Below, one piece after another: positions 2,752 through 64,000 of a DNA stretch of 64,000 bases. Source of the stretch: Paenibacillus albus (GTDB taxonomy: Bacteria; Bacillota; Bacilli; Paenibacillales; Paenibacillaceae); NCBI RefSeq assembly GCF_003952225.1, contig NZ_CP034437.1:6553001-6617000 (forward strand), written 5' to 3'. Every line of letters starts with the position of its first letter. Positions within the stretch are counted from its first letter, which is position 1. The notes under the pieces were generated by a model that made no database searches, was not told the DNA's origin, and saw only the letters and a list, made by a program, of their open reading frames with translations. The position numbers were made by a program, and so were the translations under genes.

Positions 2752-3620
2752 GCGCGCTCGCCACCTGTCAGCCGGAAGTCCTTACCCTCGACGGTGAATG
2801 TGTTACCACGCGCCATGCCGAGCAACCTACTTGCCGCCGCGTCTCCGATCCGCTCGCTTAAAGTCTCCGAGTCTTCGTTGCTGCTGAAGATAATTGGTCG
2901 CTTAGCCTTGTAGCGCTCGTTGATGATCTGGTAATACATGTCGAGTCGGTAATCGCTCGGCTTGGCTTTGCCGATATCGTCCCAGACCAGCACATCCGAT
3001 CGGATGGCAGATTCCAACAGGCGGGAAACAGCGACGCCGTCATCGTTATATGCGCGGGCTCGGGAAAGTTCGTCCATGAACGCCACGTCCGAGATGCAAA
3101 ACACCGCGAATCCGCGGCGAATCAATTCCTTGGCAGCTGCGATCTGCAGATGCGTCTTGCCGAGTCCGAAGTTATTATGCTGCGCCTTGGCTTGAGCGCG
3201 AGCGGCGCCTTTCAGTTCTCGCAGCCGAGACTCACCGTAAGCAGCCATGAAACCGAAGCCGTTCTGCTGTTGTGGTAACAGCTCTGCAAATTGATTCAGG
3301 TACCGTTGCATGCACTTTAGCATGTTGGCCTGAACGCTGGTTTCAGTTCGATATTGCGCGAACGTCGCGCGTTCGAATTCCTCGGGAATCATGGCATGCT
3401 GCAGGCGGGCGTTTAGCCGGCGCTGCTGCTGGCAGACGCATTCCCGCGCAGTCCAACCGTCGAGAATAAATCCATCGACGCAGCCTTGAGCGCATTCAAA
3501 GTGATTGGATAAGTCCAGGATAGAGCTGATCATAATATCCTTGTCCGACTGGAGAGCGCGTACTTCCGCCACTCGCCGGCGAACTTCGTCCATGTTTAGC
3601 ATGGCCCCGATCGGTTTCAT
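2748..3620 (-). CDS. DnaC-like helicase loader (AAA+ ATPase)
   Basis: The 290-residue product has an N-terminal cysteine cluster (CAQGC and CVC, about residues 44-64), typical of phage DnaC-like proteins. An AAA+ core follows, with NFGLGKTHL (Walker A, about 149-157), VLVWDDIG (Walker B, about 210) and a sensor segment IIFSSNE (about 243). It should load the replicative helicase at the phage origin together with the DnaD-like protein encoded just upstream. The first Walker A glycine is replaced by Asn. The gene overlaps the upstream gene by 125 nt. Confidence 0.85.
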   Translation of the reverse strand: MKPIGAMLNMDEVRRRVAEVRALQSDKDIMISSILDLSNHFECAQGCVDGFILDGWTARECVCQQQRRLNARLQHAMIPEEFERATFAQYRTETSVQANMLKCMQRYLNQFAELLPQQQNGFGFMAAYGESRLRELKGAARAQAKAQHNNFGLGKTHLQIAAAKELIRRGFAVFCISDVAFMDELSRARAYNDDGVAVSRLLESAIRSDVLVWDDIGKAKPSDYRLDMYYQIINERYKAKRPIIFSSNEDSETLSERIGDAAASRLLGMARGNTFTVEGKDFRLTGGERA

Positions 3621-5085: not shown

Positions 5086-5299
5086 CCTGCGTCCTCCTCT
5101 CGTCTTTCAACCAAATGATTTTCTCTCTATCGTTTAGTGTCGCTGCAGCTACCGTAAAGCCGGGATACGCGACCGCGAAATACTCACGGACGCGCACCTT
5201 GAATGCTGTTGGATCGGTCTTGCGAAGCTCCCAGAGCGCGGCGGAGACGCCGGACTGGGTAAGTGGAATGCCGAAATCGTCATACCGCGGTTCAACCAT
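5060..5299 (-). CDS. Hypothetical phage protein (79 aa)
   Basis: A soluble protein starting MVEPRYDDFG. Its ATG overlaps the recT stop codon (TAATG). It sits between the recombinase and the exonuclease, so a role in phage recombination is possible, but no family is recognised. Confidence 0.6.
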   Translation of the reverse strand: MVEPRYDDFGIPLTQSGVSAALWELRKTDPTAFKVRVREYFAVAYPGFTVAAATLNDREKIIWLKDERRTQVAERHNRI

Positions 5300-6147
5300 T
5301 AAGGCAAATCAAGCTCTTCTTGTTGCTGTTCGTCTGATGTGCTGTATTCGCTTTGACCAAGATCAATGACAATGCTGTCATCGGATGGTACCAGATCCGT
5401 ATGGACGGTTTCATCTTTCATGACTGTCGAAGCAACCTCGACGCTAATCGGCAGCCACTTCCATCCGGAACGCACAACTGTCTTTTTAACCATCTCGTCA
5501 TAATCCGTCACCCACGGTCCGTTATTCTTAGCTCGTGAGCGGCCACGGTGTGCTTCGATCTCGTCGATCGGCATGTAATGGATCTGATGTCCGCCATCCT
5601 TGAACTTCGCGACCATGTAAGCACCTTTGATCTTGCCTGCTTGTGTCTGCGGCTTGTCCGACCGTAGGTGCCAAGGTACATGTGTCAGCTTGTCCTCTAA
5701 GCCATATACCAGCTCTATGAAATCATTTTCATAGACGACATGCGCAGCGATAGATAGGATATGTCCACTACGACGGGCGAGGTCGATCATGCCCTTATAG
5801 CCAATGATGAACTGCGCTTCCTTGCCGTAAGGGATGATGTAGCAGTGTCCGATCAGTCCTGGTTCGAGACCGAGCTGCCCGGCTTGCATGACGGCTCCCA
5901 TTAGGGAAGGAATCGAGCACTCCAGCAATTTTGGGTTCGTACGAATTGTAGTAAGAGCGATCCGACTTAGGCGCTCGATACTCATGTGCTTCGGTAAAGC
6001 TTCGGCGATCTGACCTCTCATGGAATGAAGGTAGTCACCAATTGTTTGCGCTGGCGTTCTTGCCGGAGCATTTTCAGTCGTCTGTGGTGCACGATTCTGC
6101 AGTTTACCGGCGAGTTCGCCAGTATTACGACTCGAATTTCCTGACAT
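5299..6147 (-). CDS. recT: RecT single-strand annealing protein
   Basis: The 282-residue sequence has the RecT core: MSIERLSRIALTTIRTNP near residue 53, then a glycine-rich LEPGLIGHCYIIPYG segment and QFIIGYKGMIDLARRSG near residue 115. RecT proteins anneal complementary DNA made by a partner exonuclease, here the YqaJ nuclease encoded just upstream, giving a Red-like pair. It begins behind AAGGAGGAC. The acidic last ~40 residues resemble tails that bind host SSB or nuclease partners (inference). Confidence 0.92.
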   Translation of the reverse strand: MSGNSSRNTGELAGKLQNRAPQTTENAPARTPAQTIGDYLHSMRGQIAEALPKHMSIERLSRIALTTIRTNPKLLECSIPSLMGAVMQAGQLGLEPGLIGHCYIIPYGKEAQFIIGYKGMIDLARRSGHILSIAAHVVYENDFIELVYGLEDKLTHVPWHLRSDKPQTQAGKIKGAYMVAKFKDGGHQIHYMPIDEIEAHRGRSRAKNNGPWVTDYDEMVKKTVVRSGWKWLPISVEVASTVMKDETVHTDLVPSDDSIVIDLGQSEYSTSDEQQQEELDLP

Positions 6148-26104: not shown

Positions 26105-26608
26105 GATGTAGCTGGTTTGATGGACCTCTTTGGCTCGTTTGGCCGACTTTTGAGTGATGCTGGTTTGGTGGACTTCTTTGGTTCGTTTAGCCAACTTTTT
26201 CTCGATGTAGCTGGTTTTGTGGACTTCTTTGGTTCGTTTAGCGATCTATTGAGTGATGTAGCTGGTTTGGTGGGCTTCTTGTTGCTAGATGTGAATCCCT
26301 GGGGATTCTCTTGCGTTCATTCCGGCGATTTCTCGCTGATGTGAATCCCTGGGGGATTCTCTTGCGTTCTCATTTCGCCCAGCAGGAGCGGTACTCAGTA
26401 CCTCTCTTGCACTCTTTTCACTGCTTTGCAGCTCATGTGAGGTACTCAGTACCTCTCTTCCGCTTTTTCACTGCAATTTCGCCTCATGTGGGGTACTCAG
26501 AACCCCTCTTTCACCTTTTCACTGCTTTTCCAGCTCATGTGGGGTACTCAGAACCCCTCTTTCACCTTTTCACTGCTTTTTCAGCTCAAGTGAGGTACTC
26601 AGTACCTC
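26105..26608. repeat. leuA leader: eleven units phased at about 50 bp
   Basis: Three unrelated repeat types follow one another with almost constant spacing. Type 1 (GATGTAGCTGG...) starts at 26105, 26156, 26204 and 26255. Type 2 (GAATCCC..GGGATTC) is at 26293 and 26343. Type 3 is centred on GGTACTCAGTACC at 26390, 26439, 26490, 26541 and 26592. Type 3 palindromes change in both arms together (GAGGT...ACCTC or GGGGT...ACCCC). The stretch is between the T-boxes and leuA and should be transcribed with them. No supported gene lies in it. Confidence 0.8.
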
Positions 26609-26659
26609 TCTTCCACCTTCCATACTTACGCTTCACTCGAAGGTAGCATCTGCCCAACA

Positions 26660-27064: not shown

Positions 27065-27436
27065 TAAAAAAGCCTGCCATCCCTCGATCCAAACTGGATC
27101 AAGGGACGACAGACTTGTAAGTTCTGGCGCGGTACCACCCTCGTTGACGCCGCCCTGTTAAAAGCATAACGTCCACTTAAGCATGCTAACGATTCTAGAA
27201 GTCGTCAGCAATGCACCGGATCACGGCGGTTAACCGTAACAACGTACGCGAGCTGCTCCATCAGCCTTGGCCTTCGGCCAACAAAACATGGGCTCGTTTC
27301 CGCTATTCCGCTCCCAGGCGAGATTCAAGCTGTTACCCGTCTGCGTTGCACCAACCCGCAGCTCTCTGATCACGGCACTTAAGCTTTACTACTCCTGTTC
27401 AACGCGTTTCGCATAATGAATTGTGAAGTGTTGTTG
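27065..27436 (-). promoter_or_regulatory. Leucine T-box riboswitch, upstream copy
   Basis: A second complete T-box lies just upstream of the first. It has CAGGAGTAGTAAAGC, the specifier GAATCTCGCCTGGGAG with CTC (27320-27322, Leu), the T-box AGGGTGGTACCGCG (27128-27141) and a terminator ending in TTTTTT at about 27065. No clear promoter lies between the two, so both act in series on one transcript. Confidence 0.92.
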
Positions 27437-31635: not shown

Positions 31636-32502
31636 CTAGTGAATCGCGCGCTTCTTGAAGCGTCCGCCTTTCACGTCGTGAATGTTGCCAACCGCGAGAA
31701 AAGCAGTCGGATCGAGCTCCTGCACAATCGACTTCATCTTCGCCTCTTCGAGACGCGTAATGACGCAGAAGATAACCCGCTTCGAGCCACCGGAGAACGC
31801 CCCTTCCCCGTGCAAATACGTCACGCCACGGCCTAGACGGCTGATGATTGCATCGCCGATTTCTTTCCACTCCTGACTGATAATCCAGACCGACTTCGAC
31901 TGGTCGATCCCCTCCAGCGTCACGTCTATGACCTTGAAGGCAATGTAATAGGCAATCAGAGAGTACATCGCGCTATCCCAAGAGAAGACGAAGCCCGCGC
32001 TGCCGAGAATAAACAGATTGAAGAACATGACGATCTCGCCGACCGAGAACGGAGTCTTCTTCGTAAACAGAATTGCAATAATTTCCGTCCCATCGAGCGA
32101 TCCCCCGAACCGGATGACGAGACCAACGCCGATACCGAGTATAACCCCACCGATAACCGGAGCGAGGAATGTACTATACGTCAGCGCCTTCACTGGGTGC
32201 AGCAGCGTCGTTCCAACAGACATAACGACGACTCCATAAAGCGTGGAAAGAGCGAACGTCTTACCAATTTGTTTGTATCCGATGATGAGAAAAGGCAAGT
32301 TTAGCAAGAATAGAAAGATACCGAGCGGCAAGCCTGTTAAGTGAGAAACGATGATCGAGATACCGACAATTCCACCGTCAATGATGTTGTTCGGCACGAG
32401 AAAAATCTCAAGCGCGACAGCCACAAGCGCAGCGCCAATAGTAAGAAACACAATTCTAGAAAGCAGTTCGAGTTTCGTCAACCGATAATGCTGTTTAGCC
32501 AT
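31636..32502 (-). CDS. YitT-family membrane protein (DUF161/DUF2179)
   Basis: The ~288-residue protein has five to six membrane helices in the first 190 residues (family motifs NIIDGGIVGISII and RFGGSLDGTEIIA). A soluble C-terminal DUF2179 domain (about 205-285) ends KGGRFKKRAIH. These proteins are common in Firmicutes; their transport role is not established. The ATG at 32502 follows AGGGGGG. Confidence 0.9.
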   Translation of the reverse strand: MAKQHYRLTKLELLSRIVFLTIGAALVAVALEIFLVPNNIIDGGIVGISIIVSHLTGLPLGIFLFLLNLPFLIIGYKQIGKTFALSTLYGVVVMSVGTTLLHPVKALTYSTFLAPVIGGVILGIGVGLVIRFGGSLDGTEIIAILFTKKTPFSVGEIVMFFNLFILGSAGFVFSWDSAMYSLIAYYIAFKVIDVTLEGIDQSKSVWIISQEWKEIGDAIISRLGRGVTYLHGEGAFSGGSKRVIFCVITRLEEAKMKSIVQELDPTAFLAVGNIHDVKGGRFKKRAIH

Positions 32503-32858
32503 ATGATCCCCCCTAAAGCTAATCAAAATCGCGAAAAATGAGCTTATTTATCCATTATAACCTTTTTTAAGCCGAAAACCAAATATAAACCCATGTTATC
32601 TTCATCTTTTAAATCTTTATATCTTCCAATCGTCATCTTTCGATGTTTAATGCAGCGTTGAGTATGTACCGATTCAGGCGGTGCATTGCGTTGTCCGCCT
32701 GCCGATTACACGCCAAAACACCGCTTTACTACCTCCCATCACCCGTTTCAGACTAATTCCGACCCTCACCTTCAACTGGTGCGAGTTCCAATACAGAGAC
32801 TCCAATAATGCGCCTCTCGGCCAGCAGATTGACTTTTTTTCCACTTACCTCCGTCCTC

Positions 32859-33456
32859 GAAAATCGCTTTTTTGTACTCTCACGCTTGATTTCCTCCACT
32901 CGCGATGCTGAGAGTCTCGTTTATCGACTCTCAATCGGCAATTCAGCCGCTTTGCACCCGCTCTCCTCCTCGAGAGTCGCTTTTTCGCACTCTCACGCTC
33001 GATTTTCACCGCTTTCGGGGCTGAGAGTCGGATTACACGATTCTCAGCCCCATACCGACAATGGCCGCTTCGGCATTGCTCTCGCTGAGCCCTGATCGTC
33101 ACTTCGAGAGCGGCTTTTCCCCCTCTCACATGCGATTTTCCACCAATCCAGCCACTGAGAGAGTCTTTTCCCTCTCTCACCACGCATCACACACTGGTCA
33201 CGCCCTGCTCCCCACCTCGAGAGCGGCTTTTCCCTCTCTCACACGCGTTCCCCCACCAATTCAGCCAGCAAGAGAGGCTTTCCCGCTTCTCAGCAGCCAT
33301 CTCCCACCGGTTACACCCTGCTCCGCGCTTCGAGAGCGGCTTTTCCCTCTCTCACACGCGTTCCCCCACCAATCCAGCCACTAAGAGCGGCTTTTCCCTC
33401 TCTCACACACGTTTCCCCACCAATCCAGCCACTAAGAGAGGCTTTTTCCTCTCTCA
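32859..33456. repeat. Palindrome array B: eleven GAGAG...CTCTC hairpins with 51/62-bp spacing
   Basis: Hairpin units start at 32859, 32910, 32972, 33023, 33106, 33157, 33219, 33271, 33332, 33383 and 33434. Spacings are 51, 62, 51, 83, 51, 62, 52, 61, 51 and 51 bp. Arms vary together: GAGAGTC with GACTCTC, GAGAGAGG with CCTCTCTC. Linkers such as CACCAATCCAGCCACTAA recur. The array fills the intergenic stretch between two divergent genes (yitT and chrS). No gene is supported in 32503-33686. Confidence 0.85.
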
Positions 33457-33686
33457 GCCAATATGCAATTCAGTTAGTTAGTTTAAGATCTCATTGGCAT
33501 AGTTAAGCTACAGTCTGAGTCCAGTCTCAGCTAGAGTCCCGCTAGTGAAAATTAATAGCCAACAAAAAAGTACAACCCTTCTCCCATTCCCCTATTGCCC
33601 CCGTCACCAAAATAAGTTACTTTTAAACATAACGAAACTTTTCACCATATACGACTTACTATTCGCATACATAAGGAGCCATTAAC

Positions 33687-34136
33687 ATGCCAATCGACGA
33701 TATCGACCGTCATATCATACGTCTTCTGAACAAGGATGGGCGCATGTCCTATACCGACCTCGCGAAGGAGGTAGGACTATCCCGCGTCGCTGTGCAGGCG
33801 CGCGTTGCTACGCTCATGGAGAACGGCGTCATTGAGCGATTCTCCGCCGTCGTCAATCCGGAGAAGCTCGGCATCAACGTCTCAGGGTTCTTCAACGTCG
33901 AGGTGGAGCCGCAGCACCTGTACGAAGTCGCAAGCCGGCTCGCCGATGAGCCGGTCGTGACGAGCTTGTATCATATGTCCGGCCCGAGCAAGCTGCATAT
34001 GCATGCCCTGTTCGCGAATAATCAGGAGATGGAAGCCTTCCTCATCGGGACGCTCTATAAACTAGAAGGCGTCACAAGCGTAGACAGCCAAGTGCTGATC
34101 ACAAGGTACAAAAGCCGCATGGGAATGAGGTTATAA
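33687..34136 (+). CDS. chrS: Lrp/AsnC-family regulator of the chromate transporter pair
   Basis: The 149-residue protein has an N-terminal HTH ([20 protein letters not shown], then [15 protein letters not shown]) and a C-terminal RAM-like domain. In B. subtilis the Lrp-type ChrS (YwrC) lies next to and represses chr3N-chr3C; the same order here supports the call. It is followed after one base by the first transporter gene. Confidence 0.8.
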
Positions 34137-34137
34137 C

Positions 34138-34755
34138 GTGACCAATACCAATCCTACGACTTCTCCAAGCTTAAAAACCTACACCCAGCTCTGCTGGGCG
34201 ATGATGAAGACCGGCATTCTCGGCTATGGCGGCGGACCGTCAATTATTCCGCTTATCCGCTACGAAGCGGTAACGAAGCATCGCTGGCTCGCGGACGAGG
34301 AGTTCGGCGAGATTCTCGCCCTCGCCAATGCGCTGCCGGGTCCTATCGCGACGAAGCTTGCCGCTTATCTTGGCTACCGGCTGAAGGGCTCGCTTGGCGC
34401 AATTCTCTCGGTGCTCGCCCACATCTTGCCTTCGTCCATCGCGATGCTGTCACTGCTATCGGCGGTGAACTACCTCAGCCATTCCGTCATTGTCCGAGGC
34501 ATGATCAGCGCCGTCGCACCGGTCATCGCCGTCATGCTCGGCGTCATGGCATACGAATTCGGCGAACGCGCCGTGAAGGGGCTCGGCCGCAAGCTCGGCA
34601 TCGTCATGCTGCTCGCATCCTTTGCGCTGCTGCAGCTGCTCGGTGTCCATCCCGCGATTGTGATCGTCCTGTTCCTTGCGTACGGAGCGATGCATTTCAA
34701 GCTGCTCGGCCGCCTGCAGCGCACCAAATCGACCCATAATTCGGGACAGAAATGA
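34138..34755 (+). CDS. chr3N: Chromate transporter, N-terminal-type half (short CHR)
   Basis: The 205-residue membrane protein has the CHR signature ILGYGGGPSIIPLIR near residue 28 and LANALPGPIATKLAAYLG near residue 62. Short CHR proteins work as pairs of opposite topology; the partner follows at 34767. The pair probably exports chromate. GTG start directly after the regulator. Confidence 0.88.
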   Translation: MTNTNPTTSPSLKTYTQLCWAMMKTGILGYGGGPSIIPLIRYEAVTKHRWLADEEFGEILALANALPGPIATKLAAYLGYRLKGSLGAILSVLAHILPSSIAMLSLLSAVNYLSHSVIVRGMISAVAPVIAVMLGVMAYEFGERAVKGLGRKLGIVMLLASFALLQLLGVHPAIVIVLFLAYGAMHFKLLGRLQRTKSTHNSGQK

Positions 34756-34766
34756 GGCTCGCCTAA

Positions 34767-35303
34767 ATGGAATGGCTCAAACTAGTATTCGGCTTCTTCA
34801 TCGCCAACGTGCTTGGCTATGGCGGCGGTCCATCCTCGATCCCGCTTATGTATCAAGAAATTGTTACGCATTATCACTGGACGAACGACGCAGAATTCTC
34901 GAACATTCTTGCTCTGGGCAACGCGCTGCCCGGCCCGATTGCGACGAAGATCGCGACCTATGTCGGCTATGAAGCCGCCGGATGGGTTGGCATTGCCGCA
35001 GCGCTGATTGCGACGATCGTGCCATCCGCCGTTGCGCTCATCATCCTGCTCAAAGTGCTGAAGAAACACCGCTCGTCCCCTGTCGTCAAAGGCATGACGC
35101 TGCTCGTTCAGCCCGTCATCGCGATCATGATGGTGCTGCTCACCTGGCAGATGGGCAGAACATCAGTCCACGACATCGGCATCTGGCAAGGGCTGATCAT
35201 CGCAGCCGTCGCCTTCTGGGCCATGCAAATCCGCCGCATCCACCCAGCCTTCGTCATCATCGCGGCGTTCGCTTATGGGGGACTCGTTCTCCCCTTGCTA
35301 TAG
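34767..35303 (+). CDS. chr3C: Chromate transporter, C-terminal-type half (short CHR)
   Basis: The 178-residue membrane protein repeats the CHR pattern (LGYGGGPSSIPLMYQE near residue 17, LGNALPGPIATKIATYVG near residue 50). It is paired with the preceding gene, 11 bases upstream, and ends before a strong terminator. Confidence 0.88.
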   Translation: MEWLKLVFGFFIANVLGYGGGPSSIPLMYQEIVTHYHWTNDAEFSNILALGNALPGPIATKIATYVGYEAAGWVGIAAALIATIVPSAVALIILLKVLKKHRSSPVVKGMTLLVQPVIAIMMVLLTWQMGRTSVHDIGIWQGLIIAAVAFWAMQIRRIHPAFVIIAAFAYGGLVLPLL

Positions 35304-55451: not shown

Positions 55452-55870
55452 AGGGCGGTGTATAGCCCTCTCTTCGCACTGCTACCTACCGAATTTTTGC
55501 CACTTCCGCTCCCCAAGAGCGGGTTTGCCCTCTCTCAACCACTATTTTCGCGGTTTTCTCGCTTGAGCACGGCTTTTCCCTCTCTCCGCACAACCACCTG
55601 CCGCATTCCTGCCACTTTCGCTCCCAAAGAGCGGGTTTCCCCTCTCTCAACCGCTATTCTCGCGGTTTTCTCGCTTGAGAGCGGCTTTTCCCTCTCTCAG
55701 CTACAAAATCTTAGTTAGTTTGATCAGCTTCAGAGCCGAGAACTCATATCTGTGCTCTCACCCAACTTTTGGCGCGTTTCGAATGCTGAGAGAACGAATG
55801 CGTGCTCTCAGCTACAGAATATTAGTTAGTTTAATCAATTTCGGCGCCGAGAGCATATATGCTCTCTCAC
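55450..55870. repeat. Palindrome array C: eight hairpins with alternating ~50/62-bp spacing
   Basis: Units start at about 55450, 55515, 55565, 55628, 55676, 55738, 55788 and 55849, spaced 65, 50, 63, 48, 62, 50 and 61 bp. Early units are of the GAGAGCGGCTTTTCCCTCTC kind; the last is the perfect palindrome GAGAGCATATATGCTCTC. Linkers carry TTAGTTAGTTT twice, also found at the end of array B. It lies between two converging genes; no gene is supported in it. Confidence 0.85.
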
Positions 55871-63722: not shown

Positions 63723-63772
63723 CGAAATTCACTCCTCATGATTTGTATGGCTCTTCTCAACCATTTCATGTC

Positions 63773-64000
63773 GAGAGAGACTTTTCCCTCTCTCGGACCG
63801 CCAAATGGCCGATTTGGGGACTTGAGAGCGGGTTTTTCCTCTCTTAGTAGCCCAAATGTATTGAATCGCCATGATTGCACCTGTCGAGAGAGGCTTTTCC
63901 CTCTCTCGAACCGCCAAATGGCCGGTTGGGGGATTGAGAGCGGGTTTTTCCTCTCTCAGTAGCCCGAATGTATTGAATTGCCATGATTACTCCTGTCGAG
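63773..64000. repeat. Palindrome array D: hairpins at 51/62/50/62-bp spacing, cut by window edge
   Basis: Units start at 63773, 63824, 63886, 63936 and 63998. Two kinds alternate: GAGAGAG..CTTTTCC-CTCTCTC and TTGAGAGCGGGTTTTTCCTCTC. The 112-113-bp double unit repeats almost exactly, and its linkers (CCGCCAAATGGCCG and GAATGTATTGAAT-like) recur. The array continues past the right edge. No gene is supported between 63723 and the edge. Confidence 0.85.

Follow-up and report, generated by a model that had tools for sequence, protein, structure and literature searches.

Palindrome arrays of Paenibacillus albus with helical phase and an orientation matched to replication

Tandem repeats of constant size without sequence conservation were described by Subirana and Messeguer, who suggested a polymerizing nucleoid protein or small RNAs as their basis (PMC8161180, PMC6749651). 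In the accessible text of these papers, an equivalence to helical turns is remarked only for the repeats of 20-21 nt, as two turns. The same source, in the part available, defines the class by a length of 51-53 (or 20-21) nt, a non-coding location, and at least four regular repeats detected by SATFIND; it reports the 52-nt repeats of B. coagulans as transcribed, and lists Bacillus subtilis as poor in tandem repeats (PMC8161180). Other systems share single traits with such repeats. For RemA, the portion of the text at hand reports a capacity to wrap DNA and the protection of 7-bp AT-rich repeats that recur every 10 bp (PMC8481266). AIMS are defined, in the corresponding portion of their description, by an abundance and a strand bias that are higher close to the terminus (PMC5993296). 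CGTC-type REPs have been described as elements without a dedicated transposase.

The window analysed here is a 64,000-nt stretch covering positions 6553001-6617000 of the 6.63-Mb single-contig genome of Paenibacillus albus (Table 1). It contains an intergenic array, array B, for which the original prediction described eleven palindromic units at alternating 51- and 62-bp spacing. The observation was confirmed, and the pattern is far beyond chance. Ten clear palindromes with that spacing are centred at 32921, 32983, 33034, 33116.5, 33167.5, 33229.5, 33281.5, 33342.5, 33393.5, and 33444.5, giving centre-to-centre steps of 62, 51, 82.5, 51, 62, 52, 61, 51, and 51 bp, and the arm sequences quoted for the array are present. 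The eleventh unit, at ~32859, is decayed, with a best pairing of 5/9 arm positions. Over 32872-33456, the + strand has a TTT:AAA ratio of 26:0, and the A/T tracts recur with a period of 10.3 bp. The design had also been predicted to recur at 55.45 and 63.77 kb; both arrays were found again and belong to the same palindrome family. Two palindromes belonging to different subtypes, at 55788 and 55849, come after the periodic part of the former. A search of the whole window with Rfam 15 returned no match above the gathering score for any array, the sole match being a T-box leader (RF00230, 102 bits) at 27099-27411 (-); the 51-bp array at 26390-26619 lies ~500 bp away from it. Beside the Lrp/AsnC gene, two adjacent open reading frames occupy 34138-35303; the first belongs to the Chromate_transp family, and the second resembles its paralogue.

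Table 1. Arrays and neighbouring genes in the window (positions are those of the window).
Feature	Position	Strand	Description
51-bp tandem array, unrelated sequence	26105..26280	+	T-rich on the same strand as array B; TTT:AAA 16:0; A/T tracts every 9.9 bp
51-bp tandem array, unrelated palindrome (GAGGTACTCAGTACCTC type)	26390..26619	+	TTT:AAA 18:0; A/T tracts every 10.2 bp
YitT family membrane protein gene	31636..32526	-	Flanks array B on the left; PF02588, PF10035
Array B	32859..33457	+	Ten clear quasi-palindromes and one decayed unit; T-rich strand is the + strand, here the lagging strand
Array B, left sub-array	32909..33051	+	Inner arms of GAGAGTC...GACTCTC type; centres 32921, 32983, 33034
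Array B, right sub-array	33105..33457	+	Main type YGAGAG(A/C)GGC-TTTT-SCC(T/G)CTCTCR; centres 33116.5 to 33444.5; 113-bp tandem unit
Lrp/AsnC-family regulator gene	33687..34136	+	Right neighbour of array B; OV219 DNA match begins only at 34109
Array of array-B palindrome family, 112-bp period	55466..55870	+	Periodic part 55466-55706, TTT:AAA 16:1
Array of array-B palindrome family, 112-bp period	63769..64000	+	TTT:AAA 11:3; runs past the window end to genome position 6617048

A genome-wide search with the pattern GAGAGNGNNTTTTNCCTCTC (20 letters, at most one mismatch) gave 245 matches, compared with 0 for the pattern read backwards; among the 100 of these matches listed, the 84 exact ones come ahead of those with one mismatch and were taken as complete. 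We sampled 80 stretches of the genome, 40 around listed pattern sites and 40 picked regardless of arrays, and added the window. Arrays were detected by TRF and a position weight matrix, not by SATFIND. The matrix turned strand-symmetric on iteration, and the strand was then read from the loop letters. The sampled stretches and the window yielded 52 arrays (at least three palindromes, with a readable loop direction) and 4 other clusters, with palindromes in 3/40 of the stretches picked regardless of arrays. The family consensus is YGAGAG(A/C)GGC-TTTT-SCC(T/G)CTCTCR, and its sub-types keep the GAGAG...CTCTC frame while the inner letters differ. Three genomes contributed stretches, selected mainly for their arrays, in which GAGAG-N8-14-CTCTC occurred 722 times versus 13 for CTCTC-N8-14-GAGAG. 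Among 146 genomes searched, six carried the pattern: P. albus (245), two others of the same genus, G011 and G018 (44 and 13), and three genomes with one match each.

The arrays are intergenic; gaps between convergent genes hold more than their share of them, and gaps between divergent genes hold few. With genes called by a simple script of our own, trained on the P. albus genome, no overlap with a gene was found for any of the 52 clusters or of the 47 arrays checked separately. Convergent gaps held 20/47 arrays, compared with 69/568 of the gaps of at least 100 bp in the same stretches, and divergent gaps held 2/47, compared with 118/568 (the 568 gaps include those bearing arrays). Array B, between the divergent YitT-family and Lrp/AsnC-family genes, is one of these two.

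The spacing of the palindromes follows the DNA helix. In the 52 arrays, 211/235 palindrome spacings were 50-51 or 61-62 bp, an outcome in favour of the original prediction and against random spacing across the genome. These steps are five and six helical turns at ~10.2 bp, the class means corresponding to 10.13 and 10.23 bp/turn, respectively. T-tracts occupy fixed positions of the unit, in the loop (11-14), then at 32-35 and 42-44, and at 53-55 in the longer unit. The Fourier power of the A/T tracts peaked at 10.2 bp over the 52 arrays; its median at 9.9-10.5 bp was 19.1 in the arrays versus 3.5 in 246 array-free intergenic stretches, and 87% of the arrays exceeded the 95th percentile of these stretches. 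Linkers were compared using 120 of 27 nt and 80 of 37 nt from 48 arrays. Inside one array, their mean identity was 79% (27 nt) and 87% (37 nt). Between arrays, the means were 44% versus 34% after shuffling (27 nt) and 41% versus 36% (37 nt), with a few pairs from different arrays up to 85% alike. Most of the 54 intergenic tandem repeats with a period of at least 38 in the sampled stretches belong to the palindrome family for which the stretches were chosen, and 51 of them had periods of 51-52, 61, 110-113, 151-153, or 224-225 bp, approximating 5, 6, 11, 15, and 22 turns; the three exceptions were 48, 86, and 96. Eight intergenic arrays in the sampled stretches had a period of 51, seven of them outside the palindrome family.

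The arrays also have a direction relative to replication. The dnaA gene lies at 0.790 Mb, and the sign change of the GC skew in 40 further stretches placed the terminus at ~4.12 Mb; the polarity counts rest on this terminus or on local GC skew. A terminus at 3.766 Mb, derived from the polarity switch of the arrays, was rejected as circular. A search of the genome with a dif consensus that may be inexact found no site. The T-rich strand was the lagging strand in 46/52 arrays (p = 1e-8), clusters of the exact pattern had lagging-strand polarity in 36/40 cases, and the 287 palindrome loops, read on the lagging strand, comprised 243 T, 24 A, and 20 mixed. The six arrays of opposite polarity are at 3771124, 3790929, 4550761, 5189776, 6326655, and 6369851. 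Gene direction does not explain the polarity, since the orientation matched replication at 19/20 convergent sites and at 4/4 sites whose two flanking genes are both lagging (a small number). The match was 2/2 at divergent sites, 19/21 where both genes are leading, and 2/5 at stretch edges. Base composition does not explain it either, because 672 array-free intergenic gaps had no TTTT excess on the lagging strand (TTTT 2146, AAAA 2430). Among the intergenic arrays outside the family, those with a period of at least 38 were T-rich on the lagging strand in 9/11 cases (p = 0.065, with three ties dropped), several of them peaking at 8.5 bp rather than 10.2 bp, and those of shorter period in 3/7 cases with a T/A difference. 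No family palindrome occurred in the 16 stretches sampled from the terminus region between 3.81 and 4.52 Mb (~0.32 of 0.71 Mb). Some arrays lie at 3.52-3.79 Mb, and the next sampled array beyond the terminus gap is the wrongly oriented 4550761. The original prediction contained neither the helical explanation of the 51- and 61-62-bp steps, nor the replication-strand polarity, nor the likely match to a described repeat class.

The arms had been predicted to co-vary, and their paired changes had been taken as evidence for a selected fold or a two-fold protein site. In 176 distinct GAGAG-N12-CTCTC palindromes from three genomes, positions 7/16 and 8/15 were paired in 82% and 84%, versus 47% and 43% after shuffling, 6/17 was weak (51% versus 41%), and 9/14 and the pairs further inward did not exceed the shuffles. 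In 91 GAGAG-N13-CTCTC palindromes, 6/18 and 8/16 were paired in 69% and 73% (versus 46% and 44%), above all shuffles, and 7/17 was barely above them. No pair exceeded the shuffles among 154 N10 and 37 N11 palindromes, many of the N10 set possibly being out of register. In the 287 array palindromes, pairs 1-5 were nearly fixed, 7/16 and 8/15 were paired above independence, 9/14 was mostly unpaired and about as independence predicts, and 6/17 was paired less often than under independence (54% versus 61%). All of these figures are an upper bound, because the copies are related and the shuffles ignore kinship. Co-variation thus stands for the few inner pairs that exceeded the shuffles in the N12 and N13 sets, but not for 6/17, 9/14, or the N10 and N11 sets; the argument drawn from it is weaker than proposed. 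Position 6/17 resembles a pair of half-sites that differ a little, an arrangement that would suit a protein bound to double-stranded DNA more than selection for a stem.

Judged from one neighbouring protein (97% identity), the closest named relative found was Paenibacillus sp. OV219. OV219 is palindrome-free at the place of array B, and its DNA match to the window is absent between 32642 and 34109. Within it, array B is unmatched along with the larger part of the Lrp/AsnC gene, and by eye the OV219 sequence at this place appears to hold a nucleoside hydrolase gene. Elsewhere, 13/15 palindrome-bearing stretches of OV219 and 11/16 of G011 aligned to array-bearing stretches of P. albus at ~75-93% DNA identity, by eye mostly in the same gap as the P. 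albus array, which indicates that many arrays are not recent arrivals. The polarity agreed in 12/15 OV219 stretches with palindromes (3/18 stretches had none) and in 13/16 of G011, with a calibration that used the array-derived terminus at 3.766 Mb; since most of these stretches align to array-bearing P. albus stretches, the counts are not independent. OV219 and G011 each have palindromes at the place aligned with the wrongly oriented array 6326655, and these face the corresponding way; a wrong direction is therefore tolerated, and reversed arrays persist. Eight arrays picked for similar linkers align over at most four palindromes, with the likeness fading beyond the outer ones; palindrome modules have therefore probably been copied about. 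The arrays grow in 112-bp steps.

Phase and polarity recur elsewhere, but not everywhere. In Bacillus sp. PS06, 11 clusters were recognized among the matches listed (100 of 121), with scattered single matches set aside. Their 52-bp unit is unrelated, and its T4 motif was on the lagging strand, as judged by local GC skew, in 10/11 arrays among the matches listed. All 11 arrays among the matches listed were T-rich on the lagging strand, including one with the opposite motif. With this oppositely oriented array left out, the A/T-tract power of the other 10 of the 11 arrays among the matches listed was 48.7 at 10.4 bp, compared with 17.1 at 8.67 and 3.0 at 13.0. Arrays of PS06 lie within ~1.5 kb of contig ends (contigs 1, 8, 22, 23, 35, and 36), which suggests that short-read assemblies probably lose many such arrays. 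In Bacillus sp. ISL-18, the polarity was seen in 2/3 places, one of the three resting on a single match. For the 27 published 52-nt consensuses available in Table 1 of PMC8161180, the fifth harmonic (10.4-bp phase) was 3.00 versus 1.01 ± 0.19 after shuffling, with 1.79 as the largest value among 2000 shuffles, and it was the strongest of ten harmonics in 17/27; the consensuses are not independent cases, because a few are close relatives or mutual reverse complements. Twenty sampled stretches of P. lycopersici contained two long-period, many-copy intergenic arrays (52 and 92 bp) among shorter ones. Arrays of 41 bp (four turns) were seen in Peribacillus muralis (stretch 5215-5578) and Paenibacillus sp. 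UNC451MF (stretch 3403-3516), the latter with a clear palindrome.

We give about an even chance to the reading that the arrays are double-stranded DNA platforms for a multimeric wrapping protein on one helix face, with a direction tied to replication; it draws on the class literature and is supported by the core, the spacing, the phase, the polarity, the placement between genes, and the return of phase and polarity in PS06 with a different motif, and the two RemA-family genes of the P. albus genome speak for it. The unit is a quasi-palindromic core with the half-site GAGAG(A/C)GG and a central TTTT. Cores repeat every five or six turns (51 or 61-62 bp), with linker T-tracts in the same 10.2-bp phase, so that cores and tracts lie together on one face of the helix. 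We infer that the array may be occupied by a multimeric binder of this face, which would bend or wrap the DNA and value phase over exact sequence. Replication sets the array direction, with the T-rich strand as the lagging strand, and the direction would matter to a process that follows the fork or is sensitive to the strand. RemA-type or Lrp-type proteins are candidate binders only; against a link to RemA, the protein also exists in Bacillus subtilis, which the available part of PMC8161180 lists as tandem-repeat-poor. The second RemA-family match is weaker and lies at genome positions 794064-794282, ~3.5 kb from dnaA. Against the platform reading stand the six reversed arrays, the arrays outside the family (only 9/11 and 3/7), and the 2/3 places of ISL-18, and the co-variation of inner pairs would suit a hairpin as well.

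A selfish intergenic repeat had been among the options of the original prediction, and part of that option survives, as related modules are dispersed in the genome. In this account, which we regard as unlikely, a non-autonomous element would enter the lagging-strand template through a single-stranded intermediate and then be duplicated in tandem, phase and polarity being by-products. Insertion into the lagging strand would indeed yield polarity, and the account is in line with the eight linker-picked arrays that align over at most four palindromes and fade outside, the few linkers up to 85% alike between arrays, the 112-bp growth steps, and the 79-87% likeness of linkers within arrays. However, a search for the Y1/RAYT transposase (PF01797, Y1_Tnp; REP/IS200/IS605) gave 0 matches in the genome, versus matches in 5/14 control genomes. 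Linkers of different arrays are little alike (44% and 41%, against 34% and 36% shuffled), yet the spacing and the T-tract phase persist; PS06, of another genus, has the same phase and polarity with an unrelated motif; and the alignments of 13/15 OV219 and 11/16 G011 stretches show that many arrays are not recent. A simpler origin by neutral tandem duplication, with T-richness arising from strand mutation bias, draws on general knowledge: polymerase slippage makes tandem repeats, and the strands of Firmicute chromosomes differ in composition. We consider it very improbable, as array-free intergenic DNA has no lagging-strand T-tract excess (TTTT 2146, AAAA 2430) and 51/54 long-period intergenic repeats, mostly of the palindrome family for which the stretches were chosen, fall near whole turns.

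A multi-hairpin RNA was another option of the original prediction; such a transcript might act as a 3' untranslated region, sponge, or stabilizer, as proposed for the 52-nt repeats. Stems can form, the inner pairs 7/16 and 8/15 co-vary, the arrays favour gene 3' ends, and the B. coagulans repeats are transcribed according to the accessible text of PMC8161180. Nevertheless, the linker T-tracts are phased to the DNA helix, 6/17 is paired below independence and 9/14 is mostly unpaired, the orientation matches replication even where both flanking genes are lagging (4/4, a small number), and the arrays of the window match no Rfam family; we hold this explanation to be rather improbable. The helical phase of the linker T-tracts has no obvious meaning in single-stranded RNA, and of the three options offered, the RNA is accordingly disfavoured and the nucleoid-type DNA platform is the best supported. 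The strong replication strand bias would also suit signals of chromosome polarity of the kind known from KOPS, SpoIIIE recognition sequences, and AIMS, to be read by a DNA pump. We give this the smallest probability: there are ~50 clustered sites, with 0 in the 16 terminus stretches at 3.81-4.52 Mb, though some at 3.52-3.79 Mb, whereas AIMS increase in number and bias there in the part of the source available (PMC5993296), and the motif changes between genera.

For an enigmatic repeat class, the helical phase is a rule that can be tested from sequence alone, and the replication polarity adds a second one, for which any function put forward has to account. A broader idea, which we put forward as doubtful, is that Bacillales may carry genome-wide, replication-oriented wrapping platforms, in which the sizes of 20-21, 41, 51-52, 61-62, and 112 nt would be whole helical turns and each family would be its genome's local solution for one conserved wrapping protein, with the complexes facing the fork. 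If both rules hold across Bacillales, they would point to an undescribed layer of chromosome organization in this large group of bacteria from soil and industry.

Among known systems, CRISPR shares the quasi-palindromic unit and the near-constant distance of its spacers, but these are unique, whereas the P. albus linkers are repeats within an array (79% and 87% identical) and the genome holds ~50 arrays. REP, BIME, and REPIN elements are likewise short palindromes between genes, and in the accessible account they occur preferentially at gene pairs that are convergent or unidirectional (PMC3733652). In contrast to them, the P. albus arrays are long, head-to-tail, built on two fixed steps, and oriented with replication, with no RAYT/Y1 match; in 87 aligned palindromes, neither the preceding 8 bases nor the following 6 contained a fixed tetranucleotide of the GTAG/CGTC REP tag kind. 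The view that the spacing is not expected of REP, BIME, or CRISPR was thus upheld. AIMS, KOPS, and SpoIIIE recognition sequences are similarly polar relative to replication, but an AIMS is a lone octamer, and the number of these octamers is highest around the terminus, as given in the portion available (PMC5993296), and the P. albus sites form phased arrays without an AIMS-like rise towards the terminus (0 palindromes in 16 stretches, 3.81 to 4.52 Mb). Closer in design are the RemA binding regions, which combine AT-rich contacts at 10-bp steps with a weakly conserved sequence and proposed wrapping (PMC8481266), and the A/T-tract peak of our arrays at 10.2 bp agrees with AT-rich elements every 10 bp. 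The available text places the RemA regions upstream of promoters and mentions no palindrome array, and the P. albus arrays are candidate sites only.

The arrays appear to belong to the constant-size, variable-sequence tandem repeats of Subirana and Messeguer, as a variant. In the part of PMC8161180 available, these are recorded from Bacillales, and Paenibacillus is named as rich in them. According to the same part, the two have in common many arrays per genome, a size near 52, a sequence varying between families and species, short signals often accompanied by their reverse in one repeat, and an unexplained function. Our arrays overlap no called gene, and the window holds 51-bp arrays of other sequences beside the main family, a variant of 51 plus 61-62 bp. 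A literature search limited to accessible text, which did not extend to an article of 2020 in J. Bacteriol. from Subirana and Messeguer, found no replication polarity or helical phase for the 52-nt class. Replication polarity and linker T-tract phase occur in P. albus, and the accessible text of PMC8161180 mentions neither. The described repeats, as presented there, have one step, whereas the P. albus arrays alternate 51 and 61-62 bp (period 111-113) with one palindrome family dominant.
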